This document shows, piece by piece, positions 2,286 to 9,786 of a stretch of DNA of 64,000 bases. A model generated the notes under the pieces. The model saw only the letters and a program-made list of their open reading frames with translations. It was not told where the DNA came from and searched no databases. Position 1 is the stretch's first letter, and every line of letters begins with the position of its first letter. Origin of the DNA: Gallionellaceae bacterium (GTDB lineage Bacteria; Pseudomonadota; Gammaproteobacteria; Burkholderiales; Gallionellaceae); assembly GCA_030834965.1 (NCBI GenBank), contig JAUQWW010000021.1, positions 62,001 to 126,000 of the forward strand, given 5' to 3'. A program made the position numbers and the translations under genes.

Positions 2286-4793
2286 TCAAGCGAATCTCAT
2301 CAAGGCAACACAGGCCACCACATAGATCAGCACGGCCAGCAGGATCACCACGGCAAAGCCGAGATGAATCGCCAGCAGCGTGGCAAGAACGGCCCCCACC
2401 ACCGAGGCGAAGCCGTTGATCGCCCATGCCCAGGGAATGGCTGCCTCGGCCGTGCCCGCCAGCCGCGTCATGGCGGTGGGGAATGGCACGCCCATGCACA
2501 TCGCCAGCGGCGCGATGAGCACAACGGAGATGATTATTTTTGCCGCATCGGACAGATGGATCAACCCCTGGAACAGGCCCGGCAGGATGGCGAGATAGAG
2601 CAGCGCCAGTGCGCCCATCGCCATCACCGCTACAGTAACTTTTTTCGTAACCTGCCAGCGTCCGGCAAGCCAGCTTCCCCCAATCCAGCTTCCCAGGGCG
2701 GCGAACATCAGGAAGGCGCACAGCACGACCGCCACGGCATACAGCGGGTGCGCCAGAAACAGTACGAATTTCTGGATGAAGGCAATCTCCATGAACATGA
2801 AGGCAAGGCCGATCGCGAGAAAATACAGCGCCACCGGCGCGCTGGGCAGCGTGCGCCGGCAATGCGACAGGGCCAGCGGCGCCAGGATCAGAGCTATGCT
2901 CGCAGCAAACGCCTGCACCAGCGTCGCCACCAGCAGCGGGTAACTCCAGTCGAGCAGCGGCATGCCGCCCTGCTCGCGCAGCGCAAATATTTCTGCGGCG
3001 GCATTCCATTTGAAGAAACGGAAAAAATGCGGCCGGTCGTCGGTCGCCGGCTCGATGTAGAACTTGTATTGGTCAATGAACTCCTGCCGCTGCGGCCCCA
3101 GCAGTGCCACGGCTCCCTCATAGAAATAGGGCTGCGACAGGATGTTGTATCGATTTGCCTCGTCACGCTGCATCCCGGGGTAGTACGCCAGATCGAAAGA
3201 GCGCGCACGGCTGAATTCCTTGATTGCTGCAATTTCCCGTGCGGTGAAATCGCTGTCCTTTACCAGCAGCGTGACGGTTTTCCAGCCCCGTATCATCGCC
3301 AGCCTTGCGGCAGGATTCTTTACGCCGCTGCGCTCCAGCACAGTCGCCGCAGTGACAAACAGTTTCAGCGCATCGCGCGGCGGCAGCGTGAGCCAGCGGG
3401 TGACGGCCAGCATGCCGCCCGGCGTGAGACGGCTCAGATAGGTCTGCAGCGCCTCCACCGTGTACAGATAGTTTTCGCTCAGGCCGTACAGCCCGGCCGA
3501 GGCAGTGCCAAAGGAATCCAGCAGCGCCACCTGGATCAGGTCATAGCGCTCACGGCTGCTGTTGACGAAGCCGCGCGCCTCGGCCGCGTAGGCATGCACA
3601 TCGGGCCGGGCATAAAGATTGCCGGCATAGTCACGAAAACGTTGCCGCACCAGATCGGTAACGTTGCTGTCCAGTTCCACCGCGTCGACTACCGCACTGC
3701 CGTGGTAGAGCGCCTGCAACACATCGCTGCCGGCCCCGGCACCCAGCACCAGCACGCGCGGCCGTCTATTTTCTTGAGACTCCAGCACATGATAAGGCAA
3801 CGCCGAAGTAAGCTGGTCGAGATAGTCCAGTGGCGCGAGATCGCCATTGAATTGTGTCAGCGCCGACGGCCCGTTTCCATCCACGAACACGCCCAACTGC
3901 GGCGGCGGCTCACTCGTGGCATTGAGGCTCATGCCCGGCGCATCGCGCAACGGAACGCGGGTATTTTCCACTACTGCAATCTGCCCCAGGGGACTGGAGC
4001 GCTCCTCGACCACACGCGCGCCCGCGATATTCAGGGCCTGGCTCAAATCCTTGTAGGCGGAGGGATGCACCTGCACGGCGGGCATCGCCACAGCCACCAG
4101 CGCGGCCATCACGACAAGGAATTCCATCAGCCATTTCGTCTGTATCTTCAGTTCGATCACGGCGATGGCGGAAGCCAGCAATGCCAATACAGTGAGGGCA
4201 GTCAGCACCTGGCTGGGCGGCATGAGGAACAGCACGCCGATCACGCCCAGACTGCCCACTCCCGCGCCGAGGATATCGCAGGCATAGATGCGGGGTGCCT
4301 GCTTGCCAAAGTGCGCAAACATGAGACCAATGCCCAGCCCGCCACAAAAGAATGGCAGCATCATCAGCAGATAAACGGCGAGCAGTTTGGCTGGCTGGGC
4401 CTTGTCCCACAACAGTTCGAGCGGATTGAAGGGAATCTGTTGCGCCAGAAAGAACGCAGTGGGCATCAGGAAAGCCAATGCCGCTGCGACCATCACGTAT
4501 GCCGCGCCGAAGTGCGGAGCGATCTTTTCTTTGAGCAGGGTAAGCAACGTGCCGCTCGCACCGTAACCCAGCATCGCCGCGCTGATAATCATGTATGCGA
4601 AGTGATGCCACAGCACGATGCCGAACAGACGCGTCAGCAGTACTTCGTATGCCAGCACGCAGGCGGAGAGCAGGCCGATGGCAATGAATGGCGGTCGGGA
4701 CGCCGCCCTCTCTCCAGCCCTCGCCCCCACAGGGAAGACGCCGGTGGTTGGACGGAGGGAGAGGGGGATAAGGTCTCGCCGCACGCGTTTCAC
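2286..4793 (-). CDS. Membrane-embedded spermidine-synthase-like protein
   Basis: An 835-residue protein. Residues about 35-235 form several hydrophobic helices, residues about 245-600 form a soluble methyltransferase-fold domain of the spermidine synthase family (nucleotide-binding loop GAGAGSD at 351-357, then VELD, and VALLDSF later), and residues about 625-835 form another set of membrane helices. Such 'fused MFS/spermidine synthase' proteins are common but their substrate is unknown; aminopropyl transfer should not be assumed. The only in-frame start before the first helix is GTG 4793, one base after the stop of the upstream methyltransferase gene. The first ~33 codons lie in a GC-rich repeat element, so the N-terminus looks recently acquired. 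Start moderately certain, family clear. Confidence 0.82.
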   Translation of the reverse strand: MKRVRRDLIPLSLRPTTGVFPVGARAGERAASRPPFIAIGLLSACVLAYEVLLTRLFGIVLWHHFAYMIISAAMLGYGASGTLLTLLKEKIAPHFGAAYVMVAAALAFLMPTAFFLAQQIPFNPLELLWDKAQPAKLLAVYLLMMLPFFCGGLGIGLMFAHFGKQAPRIYACDILGAGVGSLGVIGVLFLMPPSQVLTALTVLALLASAIAVIELKIQTKWLMEFLVVMAALVAVAMPAVQVHPSAYKDLSQALNIAGARVVEERSSPLGQIAVVENTRVPLRDAPGMSLNATSEPPPQLGVFVDGNGPSALTQFNGDLAPLDYLDQLTSALPYHVLESQENRRPRVLVLGAGAGSDVLQALYHGSAVVDAVELDSNVTDLVRQRFRDYAGNLYARPDVHAYAAEARGFVNSSRERYDLIQVALLDSFGTASAGLYGLSENYLYTVEALQTYLSRLTPGGMLAVTRWLTLPPRDALKLFVTAATVLERSGVKNPAARLAMIRGWKTVTLLVKDSDFTAREIAAIKEFSRARSFDLAYYPGMQRDEANRYNILSQPYFYEGAVALLGPQRQEFIDQYKFYIEPATDDRPHFFRFFKWNAAAEIFALREQGGMPLLDWSYPLLVATLVQAFAASIALILAPLALSHCRRTLPSAPVALYFLAIGLAFMFMEIAFIQKFVLFLAHPLYAVAVVLCAFLMFAALGSWIGGSWLAGRWQVTKKVTVAVMAMGALALLYLAILPGLFQGLIHLSDAAKIIISVVLIAPLAMCMGVPFPTAMTRLAGTAEAAIPWAWAINGFASVVGAVLATLLAIHLGFAVVILLAVLIYVVACVALMRFA
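4706..4793. repeat. GC-rich palindromic dispersed repeat, copy 1
   Basis: The stretch holds CCCTCTCTCC on one side and GGAGGGAGAGGG on the other, followed by a tail (about 4771-4793) reading aaggtctcgc then cgcgtttcac. The tail matches copy 2 at 24,528-24,553 (aaggtctcgc, then gcgagtttca). It lies inside the predicted 5' end of the spermidine-synthase-like gene and contains its GTG start. Confidence 0.7.
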
Positions 4794-4794
4794 G

Positions 4795-5526
4795 TCAATG
4801 TCCGCCAGTAAGCGGAACGAAACGCACCGGCAAAATCTGGCGGGTCGTCACCGAACCGTCCATCTTTTTTTCCACCAGCATCAGATACTGGGTCATGAAT
4901 TGCGTGCCAAGCGGGATTACCATGCGCCCGCCCGGCTTGAGCTGAGTGATCAGAGGGGGCGGCACGTGGCTTGCAGCCGCCGTCACCATGATCGCGTCGA
5001 ACGGCGCAGCTTCCGGCCAGCCATAGTAGCCATCGCCCACCCGGGTTTGCACGTTGCCGTAACCGAGCGATTTCAGCAAAGCACCAGCCTGCTTTCCCAG
5101 CGGCTCGATGATTTCGATGCTGTAAACCGAGCCGGCAATTTCCGCCAGAACCGCCGCCTGGTAGCCCGAGCCGGTACCGATTTCAAGCACCTTGTCGCCC
5201 GCCTTGGCTCTCATCAGATCAGTCATCAGCGCCACGATGAAGGGCTGCGAAATCGTCTGCCCGTAGCCAACCGGAAGGGGGCGGTTGTGGTAGGCCATCA
5301 CGGCCAGCCCAGATGGCACGAAACGATGGCGCTCCACCTTTTGCATCGCCGCAATGACACGGGAGCTGAGAGCGGAGCTGCCGCTGGACGAGGATGTGTA
5401 CGCGGCGTCGGCCACCACCTCTTCCACCATTTTGCGACGCTCCACGTCGTATTCCGCGCCCTGCGAGGGGAGAACGAAACCGAAAAAAAGTAATGCGCCC
5501 AGAGCGAAGCGATGTGTCACAGCCAT
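4795..5526 (-). CDS. Exported protein-L-isoaspartate O-methyltransferase
   Basis: A 243-residue protein with the PCMT signature: an SAM-binding loop VLEIGTGSGYQAA, a preceding GYGQTISQP segment typical of the family, and a later PGGRMVIPLG strand. PCMT methylates L-isoaspartyl residues as a protein repair step, using SAM. Unlike the classical cytosolic enzyme, it begins with a signal peptide (hydrophobic FALGALLFFGFVL then SQGAEYD), so it probably acts outside the cytoplasm, where an SAM supply is hard to explain. A second, cytosolic-type paralogue lies at 46,979-47,635. The stop is one base from the start of the spermidine-synthase-like gene, so the pair is translationally coupled. Confidence 0.88.
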   Translation of the reverse strand: MAVTHRFALGALLFFGFVLPSQGAEYDVERRKMVEEVVADAAYTSSSSGSSALSSRVIAAMQKVERHRFVPSGLAVMAYHNRPLPVGYGQTISQPFIVALMTDLMRAKAGDKVLEIGTGSGYQAAVLAEIAGSVYSIEIIEPLGKQAGALLKSLGYGNVQTRVGDGYYGWPEAAPFDAIMVTAAASHVPPPLITQLKPGGRMVIPLGTQFMTQYLMLVEKKMDGSVTTRQILPVRFVPLTGGH

Positions 5527-5563
5527 ATCCCCTTCCCTAGATCGCAGTATTTCAGCAATTTAT

Positions 5564-6307
5564 TTAATTGTTACTACAATTTGTTGATGTTAAAGGTAAT
5601 GATCTATGCAGCGCTTCGAGCACTGAGCTGCGCAACGTCCGCCATGGCTGGCCACCCTTGATTGCGTGCTTCTGGTTGATCTCCAGTTCGATGCCAACAT
5701 AAGCGCTGGCCGGAAACCGGCGGCGCAGATAGGCGGCAAAGCCGTCAGATTTGCCGGTGTAAGGGTAATTGCGTCGCACTGCCAGGTCAGGCACCAGTGC
5801 TTTCAGGCTTGCTTGCCAGCGCATGCACAATTCCCGTTCGGGTGGGCGCGACGGATCGCAGAGCAGGCCGATATCAGCAGTGCGCACCTGTCCATCGAGT
5901 ACAGGCGCAAAACTGTGGGAGGAAATGTGGAACACTTGGCTGCCCTGCTTGACCTCCTCGGCAATGGCGGCCTCGACTTTGTTGCGATAAGGCAGGTAGT
6001 AGCGCTCCAGAATCTCGCGGCGCACTGCGGCGGACGCATGTCGCGTGGCGTCAGAATAAAGATGCGGATGGCCGATGGAGCGGTTGAAATCGATCAGCAG
6101 GCGGCTCGTGGTTGCGGAAAACAACGGCGCGGAAAGCTCGCGAGCCAGTTCCCTGGCCATGCTCATGGCCCCCTTGTCGTAGCCGCGATGGCTGTGCAGC
6201 AAGGATACAAAGCCGCGAAAAAGCGGGCGGTAGCGTTGCGGAATCCGGTTACCACCATGTTCGCAGCTGATCAAGAAACGGATTGTCGCAGCCAATCTCT
6301 TCTCCAT
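5564..6307 (-). CDS. N-formylglutamate amidohydrolase family protein
   Basis: A 247-residue protein of the FGase family. Visible family features are ISCEHGGNRIP near the N-terminus, HSHRGYDKGA, a FNRSIGHPHLYSDATR segment, HISSHSFAP and the C-terminal VGIELEINQKH. FGases hydrolyse N-formyl-glutamate in histidine breakdown, but here there is no hut gene. Instead it is the last member of a cassette with a GCS2 ligase (21-base gap), a RimK-like ligase and a C39-like peptidase. That context suggests it removes a glutamyl or amide-linked group from the product of those ligases. The domain call is firm; the substrate is inference. Confidence 0.88.
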   Translation of the reverse strand: MEKRLAATIRFLISCEHGGNRIPQRYRPLFRGFVSLLHSHRGYDKGAMSMARELARELSAPLFSATTSRLLIDFNRSIGHPHLYSDATRHASAAVRREILERYYLPYRNKVEAAIAEEVKQGSQVFHISSHSFAPVLDGQVRTADIGLLCDPSRPPERELCMRWQASLKALVPDLAVRRNYPYTGKSDGFAAYLRRRFPASAYVGIELEINQKHAIKGGQPWRTLRSSVLEALHRSLPLTSTNCSNN

Positions 6308-6328
6308 TGTGTGGCAAATGCGTGGCCT

Positions 6329-7573
6329 TTACCGCATCCCCAGAAACATCCGGCCTTCTTCCAGGCAGTCGCATAGTTCCCCGTAGATCGCCTGCAGCCT
6401 ATCCCTTCGATAGTCATCACCCATGGCACGCAGGATGCGGTGGGCCAGCGTGCCGTGCTCCAGAATAATGTGCAGCGCTTCCTGCCAGGCGTCCTGCGGC
6501 TCGGGCCGGTACAGCTTCATCGATGTGATGAGATGTCGCCACAGTTCGCGCGCCTCGCAGCGGAGTGCGGGAAAACCCATAAGCCGTAGGTATTCGGCAT
6601 CGGCAATCACGGCATGCTCGGCATCGCGGATGCAGGTGCGCAGGATCTCCGCCAGTGCGTCAGTGCCAATGGCCTGTTGCTCTGCAAGCGGCGCATAGGT
6701 TTCCTCGTAGAGCGCGCGCACGGCATCGGTAGCCGCAGCGGCGATGGCAAGATTGGCCTGCGTGCATTCCTGCATGTCAATGACGCGAATTTCAAGGGCG
6801 TTGCGGTCGAAGCGCGGAATGGCGCCGCGCGCGTTGAGCCATTCGTGATGAAGCACTCCTTTCGCATCAAGCGTTTCCATCTCCCGGTACATGGGTGCCA
6901 GAATTTGCGCCTCATATTCGGCGCGGCTGGTGGACGTTTCAGGGATCACCACCCCTATCGTCGAGGGAACCCTCAATTGGTGGGTGCGGTAGCTCTCCAT
7001 GCGAAAATCCAGAAAGCCCGAACTGCCGCCTTCGGCGATCGGCGAGCTCGCTGCCAGTGCCGGTAAGACAGGCAGCAGCAGCCGCACGGCGGCATGCAGG
7101 CGCGCAAATTCCTGGTCTCCCGCAAAGGGTAAATTGAGTTGCATGCTCTGCAGGTTGGCCCAGCCATGACACCGGCAGCCGAAAATGCGATCGTAGGCCC
7201 GATAGATTTTTGCGCTGATGTGCGGCCACAGACGCGTCTCAGCGCGGGGGTTCATAAACGGGTGCATGGCGGTAGGCATGAGCCTTGCGCCCATGTGTTC
7301 GAGCAGCCGGTTGATGCGCTGGATCTCGCTCTGAAGCGCTTCCGAAAGGGATTCCATCGCGATATCCGGATTTGAATTCTTCAGTTCGAGCAGATGCAAT
7401 ACCAGTTCATTGGACCAACACAGCGCGCCTTGCCTGACTTCACCGACATATTCTCCGGCAAGTCTGTGCAGCAACTCGTCGGCGACAGGCAAGACCGCAA
7501 GCGTATGGCGGTCGACGATCATGTACTCAAGCTCGATACCGCAGCCCGAGAAGGCTTGCAGCGCAGTACTCAT
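6329..7573 (-). CDS. GCS2-type carboxylate-amine ligase (glutamate-cysteine ligase-like)
   Basis: A 414-residue protein of the GCS2 / YbdK-like family of ATP-dependent carboxylate-amine ligases. It shows GCGIELEYMIVD near the N-terminus, LLELKNSNPD, a central CRCHGWANLQSMQLNLPF segment and RFDRNALEIRVIDMQE. ATG 7573 is chosen because GGGAGGTGG lies just upstream and because the TGA of the RimK-like gene overlaps it (ATGA); the open frame continues upstream only as an overlap with that gene. Family members form amide bonds between an amino acid carboxylate and an amine. The true substrate is unknown; a pathway with the co-operonic RimK-like ligase is likely. Confidence 0.88.
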   Translation of the reverse strand: MSTALQAFSGCGIELEYMIVDRHTLAVLPVADELLHRLAGEYVGEVRQGALCWSNELVLHLLELKNSNPDIAMESLSEALQSEIQRINRLLEHMGARLMPTAMHPFMNPRAETRLWPHISAKIYRAYDRIFGCRCHGWANLQSMQLNLPFAGDQEFARLHAAVRLLLPVLPALAASSPIAEGGSSGFLDFRMESYRTHQLRVPSTIGVVIPETSTSRAEYEAQILAPMYREMETLDAKGVLHHEWLNARGAIPRFDRNALEIRVIDMQECTQANLAIAAAATDAVRALYEETYAPLAEQQAIGTDALAEILRTCIRDAEHAVIADAEYLRLMGFPALRCEARELWRHLITSMKLYRPEPQDAWQEALHIILEHGTLAHRILRAMGDDYRRDRLQAIYGELCDCLEEGRMFLGMR

Positions 7574-9054
7574 TTCCACCTCCCTTGCCGGTGCATTTCC
7601 ATGCGTCGCAAAAAAACGCCCATCACCTCGCGGTAGAGCGCATCCTTGAGCACGCCATCCTCGTTGCCGGCATCCACGTTGGGGTTGTCGTTGATTTCGA
7701 TGACACAGCAGCGCTTGCCGGCCTGCTTGATGTCCACGCCATAAAAACCGTCGCCGATCAGGTTGGCCGACTTGAGCGCGAGCTTCACCACCCTCTGCGG
7801 CACGTCTTCCAGCGCTACCGCTTCGGTCGGGCCCTCCACAAAATCGCGTTTTTCCTTGCCGTGCTTGATGATCTGCCAGTGGCCGGGCGCCATGAAGTAT
7901 TTGCACGCGAACAGCGGCTTCCGGTCGAGAATGGCGACCCGCCAGTCAAAGTTAGTGGGCAGATATTCCTGCGCGATGATCAGGTCGGACTTGTCCAGCA
8001 ACTCGTTCACGCTGCGCCGCAGCCCTTCCTCTGATTCCGCCTTGATCACGCCCACGGAGAAGGAACTGTCCGGCTGCTTCAGCACACACGGCAACGAGAG
8101 CGCAGGGATGATGCGCTCGACATTGTCGCGGTGCACCAGCTGGGTTTCCGGCGTGGGGATGCGGTGACGCGCCAGCAATTCGGCCAGATAGACCTTGTTG
8201 TTGCATTTCAGGATGGAGTCCGGATCGTCGATCACCACCAGTCCTTCCGCCGCAGCCCGCCGCGAAAAACGGTAGGTGTAGTGGTTCACGAAGGTGGTGT
8301 CGCGAATGAACAGCGCATCGAATTCGGGCAGCCTGCCGACGTCGGGGCGGGTAATGAGCTCGACGTGGATGCCCAGGGCATGTGCCGCCTTTTCGAATTT
8401 CCTGATCGCCTTGGCATTCGAGGCCGGTTCGGGATTATCGGGGTCATGCAGGATTGCGAGATCGTAGCGCGGCGCACGCTTGCGCAATCGCTGCTTATGC
8501 ACCCTGGGTCTTCGCCCCTGAAAATAATCCGTGGCGGCCTGGATTGCGAATTCCTGATGCGGCGGCGGGATGTCGCTGGCCGCTATCGCTCTTACGCCGC
8601 GAATGCGCCACTGTTCCTCATGGCGCTCGAAATCGGCGCGCAGCAACGGCGCCTGCAGAAGATTGAAAAGCTGGCGGCTAAGCTGGTCGTAGTGCCTGGC
8701 CACATTGCGGCCGAAGTAGATGCTGAGCTCGAATTTCTCCGCCTTGATGGGCGCCAGGGATTTCTGCACCAATTCGTCCAGTTCATCGGTGAGCAGGCGC
8801 ACCATGCTCCGGGATTGCAGATCCTCGATGGTGTTGGTCTTGGGCAGCGGATTATGGCCGCGCGCCTCGGCGAGCAGAGAAACGTAATAACCCATGCTCT
8901 GATAGCGATAGGATTTGCACAGGTTGAACACGCGCGTGCCGCGTTCGTTGCCGTATGCCGGCTCGGTCAGATAGGCCTTTGCCGGCACGACGGTCACGTC
9001 CGGAATGTCGAGCGGCCAGTCATGGGGGTTATTCACGATGATGAGGGTCTTCAT
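7570..9054 (-). CDS. RimK-like ATP-grasp ligase with N-terminal extension
   Basis: A 494-residue protein. The C-terminal half (about residues 270-490) is an ATP-grasp domain of the RimK type: PCVLKQPDSSFSVGV for the ATP-lysine loop, QEYLPTNFDWRV, and the metal-binding end YGVDIKQ plus VIEINDNPNVDAG. The N-terminal ~200 residues (starting MKTLIIVNNPHDWP) form the separate domain found on long RimK-family proteins. RimK-type enzymes add amino acids, commonly glutamate, to a peptide or protein carboxylate. The gene starts six bases after the peptidase gene and overlaps the GCS2 gene by four bases, so tight co-expression is expected. The acceptor is unknown. Confidence 0.9.
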   Translation of the reverse strand: MKTLIIVNNPHDWPLDIPDVTVVPAKAYLTEPAYGNERGTRVFNLCKSYRYQSMGYYVSLLAEARGHNPLPKTNTIEDLQSRSMVRLLTDELDELVQKSLAPIKAEKFELSIYFGRNVARHYDQLSRQLFNLLQAPLLRADFERHEEQWRIRGVRAIAASDIPPPHQEFAIQAATDYFQGRRPRVHKQRLRKRAPRYDLAILHDPDNPEPASNAKAIRKFEKAAHALGIHVELITRPDVGRLPEFDALFIRDTTFVNHYTYRFSRRAAAEGLVVIDDPDSILKCNNKVYLAELLARHRIPTPETQLVHRDNVERIIPALSLPCVLKQPDSSFSVGVIKAESEEGLRRSVNELLDKSDLIIAQEYLPTNFDWRVAILDRKPLFACKYFMAPGHWQIIKHGKEKRDFVEGPTEAVALEDVPQRVVKLALKSANLIGDGFYGVDIKQAGKRCCVIEINDNPNVDAGNEDGVLKDALYREVMGVFLRRMEMHRQGRWK

Positions 9055-9060
9055 TGCTGT

Positions 9061-9786
9061 TTACCCAGTTGCCGATGCAGTTGCCTGTTGCCGGGGCGGA
9101 TGAATCACCAGCAAGTTGGCGTCGTGTGTCACGATGCCCAGCAGCACGGCACCCAGCACCCGGTCGATATTGCTCCAGTATTCCTGTGACGGGCCGTAAG
9201 GGTCCGCCACCAGCACCGTATGCTTGTCGCTGTCATAGCCGGCCATGATGACGAAATGACCGGCAGGAAAACCGCGCACGTCGTCGGGCGTATCCTCTGG
9301 CCCATGCTCGCGCGCGGTACGATACAGATAGGTGGAGCTCAGCCCGGTCAGGACCGGCAGGCCGCGCCGCAAGAGGCCGTGAATAAGCTGATGGGACAAG
9401 TCGCTCAGGCGCAGCCGCCCGCCCAGGCTCAGGAATTCCAGATAGCCTTCGGTGGCATGGCGCAGCCTGGCATCCGTTTTGGCCTCACGCTGCAGCCGCA
9501 GCCGCTCGGCGATATCCACACCGGCGACGAACCAGGTTGGGTCGAACATCATCAGGTTGTAGGTGTAGATCGTCGTCTGGAAGCCATTGCGCAGCGCATC
9601 GCAGGCCAGAAAGACAGCGAAGGTCCCGCTGCCGCTTTCCAGCTTGCCGGTGCGGGCGATGACCTCCCCCAGCGCCTCGCGTTTTCCCCAATAGTTGTAG
9701 ATGGCATGCAGGCAGGTAGGACCGCAGGTCGTCTCGTCCGGCTGGGGCAGGATTTTGACGGGCAAGCGCAGTGAGGTCCTCAACAT
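9061..9786 (-). CDS. C39-like (papain-fold) cysteine peptidase
   Basis: A 241-residue protein with a complete candidate papain-like triad: Cys21 in ETTCGPTCL, His177 in GHFVIMAGYD and Asp195 in VADPYGPS. Spacing and motifs match peptidase_C39_like proteins, which include the bacteriocin leader peptidases. No signal peptide is seen and there is no ABC transporter fused to it, so it is a stand-alone cytoplasmic peptidase or transglutaminase-like hydrolase. It is the first gene of the cassette that continues with the RimK-like ligase, GCS2 ligase and FGase. It may trim a peptide that those ligases build or modify. No obvious precursor peptide gene was found next to it. Confidence 0.83.
   Translation of the reverse strand: MLRTSLRLPVKILPQPDETTCGPTCLHAIYNYWGKREALGEVIARTGKLESGSGTFAVFLACDALRNGFQTTIYTYNLMMFDPTWFVAGVDIAERLRLQREAKTDARLRHATEGYLEFLSLGGRLRLSDLSHQLIHGLLRRGLPVLTGLSSTYLYRTAREHGPEDTPDDVRGFPAGHFVIMAGYDSDKHTVLVADPYGPSQEYWSNIDRVLGAVLLGIVTHDANLLVIHPPRQQATASATG

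Follow-up and report, generated by a model that had tools for sequence, protein, structure and literature searches.

The window analysed here is a 64,000-nucleotide stretch of DNA from a Gallionellaceae bacterium. Four genes lie side by side on one of its strands (Table 1). The C39-like gene ends 6 bases before the start of the ATP-grasp gene (gap 9055–9060), the ATP-grasp and GCS2 genes overlap by 4 bases (7570–7573, with the ATG of GCS2 taken at 7573), and 21 bases (6308–6328) separate GCS2 from the FGase-family gene. All four open reading frames are intact, and the spacing of 6, −4 and 21 bases agrees with that of the first-pass annotation. Beyond FGase, a 37-base gap (5527–5563) leads to a methyltransferase gene (PCMT), which is 1 base apart from a spermidine-synthase-like gene (SPEE). 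A promoter and terminator scan gave signals no commoner than in shuffled sequences, and defence-system models matched none of the four cassette proteins.

Table 1. Genes of the cassette, in order of transcription
Product	Coordinates	Strand	Length (aa)	Pfam	Remark
C39-like papain-fold cysteine peptidase/acyltransferase	9061..9786	−	241	PF13529	cassette gene 1
RLAN domain + RimK-like ATP-grasp ligase	7570..9054	−	494	PF14401 + PF08443	
GCS2-family carboxylate-amine ligase	6329..7573	−	414	PF04107	
FGase-family (N-formylglutamate amidohydrolase-like) hydrolase	5564..6307	−	247	PF05013	

Each product matches its family above the Pfam cut-off. The C39-like protein (Peptidase_C39_2, 2.6e-11) gives an AlphaFold model with a pLDDT of 85.7. 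In VIA-align, which we applied for both fold comparisons to the folds listed by Foldseek, this model fits C39 peptidase domains best (6mpz, Z 17.5; PCAT1, 16.8; ComA, 16.4), followed by phytochelatin synthase Alr0975 (Z 15.0–15.7). The ATP-grasp protein carries an RLAN domain (8.6e-52) and a RimK-like domain (6.4e-13) in a single reading frame, a fusion that characterizes RLAN-type amidoligase systems, as does an adjacent C39-like peptidase. Its predicted model (pLDDT 85.6) was compared over residues 194–494, outside of which lies the RLAN domain (about residues 1–190); residues 197–488 fit ArgX (Z 28.2), LysX (27.6) and RimK (27.1) about equally well. The genome of the window has no other gene that matches the RimK domain.

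The GCS2 protein (2.1e-24) matches YbdK/GshA-related NCBIfam models below cut-off, and among solved sequences it comes closest to plant glutamate-cysteine ligases (E 4e-4 to 1e-3). The nearest solved sequence to the FGase protein (7.6e-24) is 2odf, hypothetical protein Atu2144 (7.5e-18). The active-site residues had been described as looking intact, and the putative catalytic positions, which we assigned by analogy, are indeed kept in the window proteins and all relatives compared with them: Q15, C21, H177 and D195 of C39 (50/50), K287, K326, D441, E453, N455 and N457 of ATP-grasp (81/81), E14, E16, E56, E63 and K65 of GCS2 (51/51), and E16, H17, H127, H131 and E207 of FGase (37/37).

To follow the cassette through relatives, we compared 80 ATP-grasp loci, the best of 260 relatives and hence biased to close kin, with the window's own locus outside the 80. 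Twelve loci with too little flanking sequence (7 with C39, 5 with RLAN only) were left out. Among the remaining 68, C39 is present at 45, C39 with GCS2 at 44 and the complete set at 33; FGase is absent beside 11 of the 44, and at 23 of the 68 the ATP-grasp gene has no cassette partner beside it. One locus (L082) was scored as C39 only by phmmer, and its downstream reading frame belongs to the GCS2 BLAST cluster. At another (L091), the first 690 residues of a 1166-aa reading frame match nothing in Pfam, NCBIfam or the PDB sequences and may be a spurious extension. In a sample of 300 genomes from the order, including that of the window, C39 and GCS2 occur in the identical 11 genomes, RLAN lies beside C39 in all 11 and FGase adjoins the cassette in 10; absences in this sample are uncertain, as only part of the first-look candidates were scored (thresholds 1e-20, RLAN 1e-40). 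The co-occurrence of C39, GCS2 and RLAN gives Fisher P values of 3e-19 and 3e-20 with shared ancestry ignored. The four genes are therefore a conserved operon in which FGase is optional, and RLAN-ATP-grasp, present in every variant seen, is its core enzyme.

The first-pass annotation had proposed that two families forming amides and two cleaving them make up one unit, and this unit is conserved in relatives. Linkage of all four genes holds in part: C39, ATP-grasp and GCS2 are not mostly unlinked, but FGase is dispensable, ATP-grasp often stands alone, and the cassette is present in just 2 of the 36 genomes sampled from the family to which the window belongs. Records that carry it bear the names Nitrosomonas, Nitrotoga, Thiobacillus, Sulfuricella, Gallionellaceae, Azoarcus, Aromatoleum and Herminiimonas; a small number of draft genomes assigned to Desulfobulbaceae, Myxococcota and Balneolota have it as well. 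Five Nitrosospira/Nitrosovibrio genomes keep C39, GCS2 and FGase together, away from the ATP-grasp gene. A neighbour of about 490 aa recurs at seven loci in Nitrosospira (cluster 13), and a Pfam scan of two of its members gave no match. Among 23 genomes with a lone RLAN gene (many of them drafts), 18 are without C39, GCS2 and DUF3335, and no partner of the lone gene was found across lineages.

PCMT and SPEE had been suggested as further members. Neither is conserved: SPEE is found at 0 of the 80 loci, and PCMT on the same strand within 4.5 kb at 1 of 68, where the cassette is missing; one further PCMT lies 8 kb away on the opposite strand. Within the window, the two genes could still share the cassette transcript. 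Apart from the four cassette families, clustering of the neighbours, part of which were annotated, yielded no family shared by more than 9 of 52 C39 loci. For small reading frames, we took 48 cassettes and compared those of 20–111 codons lying up to about 0.7 kb before or 0.9 kb after them. No family lies near more than 10 of the 48 cassettes, in line with the earlier remark that no precursor peptide gene is nearby. The two commonest families (10 of 48, upstream) occur solely where an NMD3-like gene directly precedes the cassette, and downstream families reach 6 of 48. The NMD3-like gene, detected at 11 loci by profile, ends 9–141 bases before C39 and in one case overlaps its called start.

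Other Pseudomonadota carry RLAN loci of a different composition. We fetched 40 of these from 58 non-window RLAN matches, and 39 have a GNAT or GNAT-C39 gene near ATP-grasp. At 28 loci it is a GNAT-C39 fusion, with profile scores of at least 400 bits (six checked with Pfam), and at 11 it is GNAT only (120–172 bits; six checked). Twelve weak GCS2-profile matches (23–96 bits) in the same 40 loci were taken as other-frame artefacts, because some profile rows were frame extensions into RLAN; their coordinates overlap the RLAN gene, and one (L125) was assigned to DUF2157 by Pfam. In the other direction, the GNAT-DUF3335 profile gave one weak match (26 bits, L074) over the 80 loci and the first 20 kb of the window, and none of 39 genomes, the window's among them, has DUF3335. 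The cassette thus lies outside the GNAT branch, not outside the wider kind of RLAN-type amidoligase. The window C39 protein and the DUF3335 domain are homologous (hhalign E 5.4e-11, probability 97%), with the Q, C, H and D residues aligned. One GNAT-DUF3335 protein was scanned against NCBIfam, and its top match, RimI, stays below cut-off (76.8 of 86.4 bits). RimI is an N-terminal protein acetyltransferase.

Relatives of the window FGase also occur at loci without the cassette. Of 13 genomes with FGase and no cassette, 10 were fetched (the omitted three include one weak match of 75.5 bits); Anbu lies near FGase in 9 of these 10 and transglutaminase in all 10. The Anbu/transglutaminase genes are another predicted amidoligase, peptide-tagging system, and this neighbourhood suits a role of FGase in removing amide-linked groups. 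The function of the Anbu genes themselves is still unsettled, according to the passages on them in PMC6376114.

The cassette may well encode a pathway in which a short glutamyl peptide or a glutamylated end is built by non-ribosomal ligation and trimmed, a reading in which we place middling confidence; we infer the chemistry, the glutamyl substrate, the cytoplasmic location and the order of the steps. The RLAN/RimK-like ligase would activate a carboxylate as an acyl phosphate and join it to an amine. GCS2 would form a second amide, probably of the gamma-glutamyl type, either on this compound or for it. The C39-like cysteine enzyme would cut or transfer an acyl group of the product, like phytochelatin synthase with glutathione or like an isopeptidase, and the FGase-type hydrolase would free an N-acyl-glutamate/aspartate-type group for recycling. 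The enzyme families, the two predicted folds, the conservation of the operon, the co-occurrence of its genes when split and the lack of a general small-ORF family all suggest such a pathway, and the recurrence of the gene set across other bacteria makes it probable that the pathway is real. Against it count the loci without FGase and, to our knowledge, the presence of members with other chemistry in every one of the enzyme families. The lone-RLAN genomes without partners also count against it, since there the acceptor of ATP-grasp need not depend on the partners.

These same lone lineages would fit an acceptor encoded elsewhere, and thus a somewhat unlikely alternative in which ATP-grasp adds amino acids to one particular protein at its C-terminal carboxyl, with GCS2 branching or capping this extension and C39 and FGase shortening or removing it. 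The fit of ATP-grasp to enzymes acting on protein C-termini (ArgX/LysX and RimK, Z 26.7–28.2, above the 24.3 or less of D-Ala-D-Ala ligases and the 22.0 of glutathione synthetase) and the RimI match of the GNAT-DUF3335 protein point the same way. However, no target protein was found: the LysW carrier gene is present in 0 of 13 cassette genomes (the same search was positive in 4 of 14 control genomes), and 25 S6 sequences, 13 of them from cassette genomes, show by eye no C-terminal tail particular to the cassette (one of 26 genomes yielded no S6). Less probable still is a glutamyl-tagging system, in which RLAN-ATP-grasp and GCS2 would write a (branched) glutamyl tag that C39 and FGase erase; the FGase subfamily, with relatives near Anbu/transglutaminase genes, would then be a deconjugating module used by both systems. 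The optional FGase and the frequently solitary ATP-grasp gene would also suit four independent catabolic or housekeeping enzymes with one transcript and no common product. This is decidedly unlikely, as C39 and GCS2 are confined to the identical genomes, always with RLAN, and stay together where RLAN sits elsewhere. Biosynthesis of a graspetide-like RiPP, with C39 as leader peptidase, is highly improbable. PCAT/ComA-type domains are the top fit of C39, and passages in PMC8939145 place C39 peptidase-transporters and PCMT-type methyltransferases beside graspetide ATP-grasp loci, but a precursor gene conserved beside the ligase is lacking in the 48 cassettes, the commonest small-ORF families go with the NMD3-like gene, no other neighbour family is general and PCMT is not conserved.

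The preferred reading, a pathway of glutamyl ligation and trimming, concerns a cassette found in several named genera, yet we found no report of its product in the open-licence literature. To call the product undescribed, as had been suggested, is too strong: in 2009, Iyer et al. reportedly predicted RLAN/RimK-like ATP-grasp amidoligase systems with GNAT and C39-like (DUF3335) peptidase partners. What is added here is ATP-grasp without partners, the GNAT-linked sister loci and the FGase–Anbu/transglutaminase neighbourhood. The comparison offers three handles, namely the ATP-grasp core, GCS2 and FGase where other Pseudomonadota carry GNAT, and the tie of the FGase subfamily to Anbu genes; the four enzymes could lead to a new metabolite or protein modification.

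As had been stated, the cassette is, judged by family scores, not that of glutathione synthesis, hut or standard S6 modification. RimK, a glutamate ligase, adds residues to the C-terminus of ribosomal protein S6, and ArgX and LysX act on the carrier LysW. The window enzyme shares their ATP-grasp fold, but it has the extra N-terminal RLAN domain, scores far below the NCBIfam cut-offs of RimK, LysX and CofF (RimK models NF007764, 31.6 of 331 bits, and TIGR00768, 67.3 of 143.4 bits) and, unlike LysX/ArgX, comes without a LysW gene in the 13 cassette genomes searched. As regards HutG of the histidine pathway and AstE of the arginine pathway, the window FGase has no NCBIfam match at 0.001. The glutathione/phytochelatin pathway is echoed by the weak sequence match of GCS2 to plant glutamate-cysteine ligase, by the fit of ATP-grasp to glutathione synthetase (Z 22.0) and by the papain fold of C39 (Z 15.7 to phytochelatin synthase). 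However, GCS2-type models give 30–54 bits against cut-offs of 176–427, glutathione synthetase models 18 of 272 and 37 of 408 bits, and FGase is added. NAGGN synthesis (asnO-ngg) resembles the sister GNAT system in its GNAT and ATP-grasp logic (weak GNAT match to TIGR03103, 28.9 of 569 bits), whereas the cassette has no asparagine-synthetase-like gene and its families differ. To the Anbu proteasome-like operon (ATP-grasp, alpha-E, transglutaminase, Anbu) the cassette is tied by relatives of its FGase, 46–62% identical, that lie near Anbu and transglutaminase genes, but no Anbu, transglutaminase or circularly permuted ATP-grasp match (E 1e-10) occurs in the 80 RLAN loci and the first 20 kb of the window. 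The GNAT/DUF3335 RLAN systems have in common with it the RLAN-ATP-grasp enzyme and a homologous C39-like domain; the cassette differs in its free-standing C39 and in carrying GCS2 and FGase in place of GNAT, and together with the lone RLANs it forms one clade, separate from the 40 GNAT-type loci (support 100, quick tree).

The four minus-strand genes of the cassette are present and intact, with the spacing described in the first-pass annotation. Their products match Peptidase_C39_2, RLAN plus RimK ATP-grasp, GCS2 and FGase in Pfam, all above cut-off, and the putative active-site positions of the four proteins, assigned by analogy, are invariant among relatives. None has an above-cut-off match in NCBIfam: the ATP-grasp protein stays below cut-off with the RimK family (67 of 143 bits) and S6 ligase (32 of 331 bits), GCS2 scores 30–54 bits against YbdK/GshA-type models with cut-offs of 176–427, and C39 and FGase match nothing.

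Features of the window and of two related loci (L062, L091)
Feature	Position	Strand	Remark
C39-like peptidase	window 9061-9786	-	
RLAN/RimK-like ATP-grasp	window 7570-9054	-	
GCS2	window 6329-7573	-	
FGase	window 5564-6307	-	
PCMT-family methyltransferase	window 4795-5526	-	N-terminus resembles signal peptide by eye
Spermidine-synthase-like gene	window 2286-4793		1 base from PCMT-family gene
Conserved ORF (~490 aa)	L062:8426-9901		just upstream of lone RLAN
Open frame (1166 aa)	L091:7955-11455		ends in RLAN-ATP-grasp

A one-genome-per-species scan with the ATP-grasp protein gave 260 relatives, of which the best 80 were taken as loci; the 68 whose flanks reach at least 1 kb upstream and 2.3 kb downstream of the ATP-grasp gene were counted. 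Among these best relatives, 33 of the 68 loci carry all four genes, 11 lack FGase alone, one has C39 with GCS2 and FGase unmatched, and 23 have RLAN without its three partners; the commonest C39–RLAN spacing is a 4-base overlap (36/49 loci with both genes called). In a sample of 300 genomes of the order, including the window genome, C39 and GCS2 occur in the same 11 genomes and never without the ATP-grasp, RLAN in these and one more (G454), and FGase in 10 of the 11 and 13 others. C39 and RLAN lie side by side on one contig in all 11, with RLAN in G479 and C39 in G616 broken by contig ends. Within the window's own family, RLAN is found in 6 of 36 sampled genomes and the cassette only in the window genome and G017 (one of the other four RLAN contigs is just 3.7 kb); the cassette is not general there.

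In a tree of 121 RLAN proteins, built by a quick method that leaves certain forks unsure, the cassette clade contains lone RLAN genes at four positions, and loss or separation of partners thus reads as the derived state. Five of 23 examined lone-locus genomes (Nitrosospira/Nitrosovibrio) keep C39-GCS2-FGase together elsewhere, with no RLAN match there; in the remaining 18, neither C39 nor GCS2 nor DUF3335 is matched. Since, in addition, ATP-grasp residues K287, K326, D441, E453, N455 and N457 are intact in 28/28 lone proteins, the enzyme apparently has a role in its own right. The ORF tabulated for L062 recurs at six other Nitrosospira/Nitrosovibrio loci (cluster 13), and the two members scanned have no Pfam match. 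The first 690 residues of the L091 frame match nothing in Pfam, NCBIfam or PDB sequences and may be a spurious extension.

Across the phylum, 56 of 299 sampled genomes carry RLAN. By profile, 28 of 40 fetched Pseudomonadota loci (L123-L162) carry a GNAT-DUF3335 fusion, 11 a GNAT-type match without DUF3335 and one neither; the cassette C39 and FGase profiles match none of these stretches (at most 12.5 kb). The free-standing C39 and DUF3335 are homologous by hhalign (E 5.4e-11), with a direct PF11814 match in 1/34 cassette C39 proteins, at 0.008. Judged from these comparisons, the common core would hence be an ATP-grasp, usually with a C39-like enzyme, joined by GNAT in one branch and by GCS2 and FGase in the other.

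PMC6376114 lists ATP-grasp, alpha-E, transglutaminase and Anbu as the genes of the Anbu operon, and presents hypotheses that lack experimental confirmation. Ten of the 13 cassette-less FGase genomes were fetched (L176-L185): all ten stretches carry a transglutaminase-like gene and nine an Anbu gene, the tenth contig being 3.3 kb, and one also has a circularly permuted ATP-grasp. The three genes are neighbours in most stretches; in L176, Anbu and transglutaminase lie ~3 kb from FGase. Two Anbu proteins match natural (E 2e-72, 3e-76) and designed (2e-91, 1e-92) Anbu sequences of solved structure, and the Anbu-linked FGases are 46–62% identical to the window FGase. Searches of the open-access literature found no paper that links Anbu to formylglutamate, or FGase to both transglutaminase and ATP-grasp.

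RLAN-ATP-grasp-peptidase systems were reportedly predicted as a kind by Iyer in 2009, so the first-pass description of the product as undescribed overstates the case. The present work adds the GCS2+FGase variant, together with the pattern of its losses, and the connection between FGase and Anbu; both may overlap the 2009 prediction. Membership of the PCMT-family methyltransferase, raised as a possibility in the first pass, is not supported, as conservation with the cassette is lacking. Eleven mainly Thiobacillus-type loci have an NMD3-like gene (the one member scanned matches PF04981) immediately upstream of the cassette on the same strand (L014, L040, L041, L042, L044, L046, L050, L051, L052, L053, L061), a possible lineage-specific fifth gene.

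The ATP-grasp part of the model fits ArgX (Z 28.2), LysX (27.6) and RimK (27.1) roughly equally, followed by D-Ala-D-Ala ligases (up to 24.3) and glutathione synthetase (22.0). With VIA-align, the C39 model is closest to C39 peptidase domains (highest Z 17.5), ahead of phytochelatin synthase (15.0–15.7) and pseudomurein endoisopeptidase PeiR (14.7); Foldseek ranks PeiR first. The modelled fold would be equally compatible with peptidase, isopeptidase and acyl transferase activity.

Because two amide-forming families accompany two amide-cleaving ones, with no general precursor-peptide gene near the cassettes (as had been noted for the window), we favour, with about even confidence, a cassette whose enzymes would build and trim a short glutamyl compound non-ribosomally. 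Modification of a protein tail ranks next and is rather unlikely. In most of the fetched sister loci GNAT is fused to the C39-like domain, whereas in the window cassette C39 is free and stands with GCS2 and FGase. According to PMC12239564, RimK and the peptidase RimB form a writer/eraser pair of a similar kind, but RimB is an aspartic peptidase.
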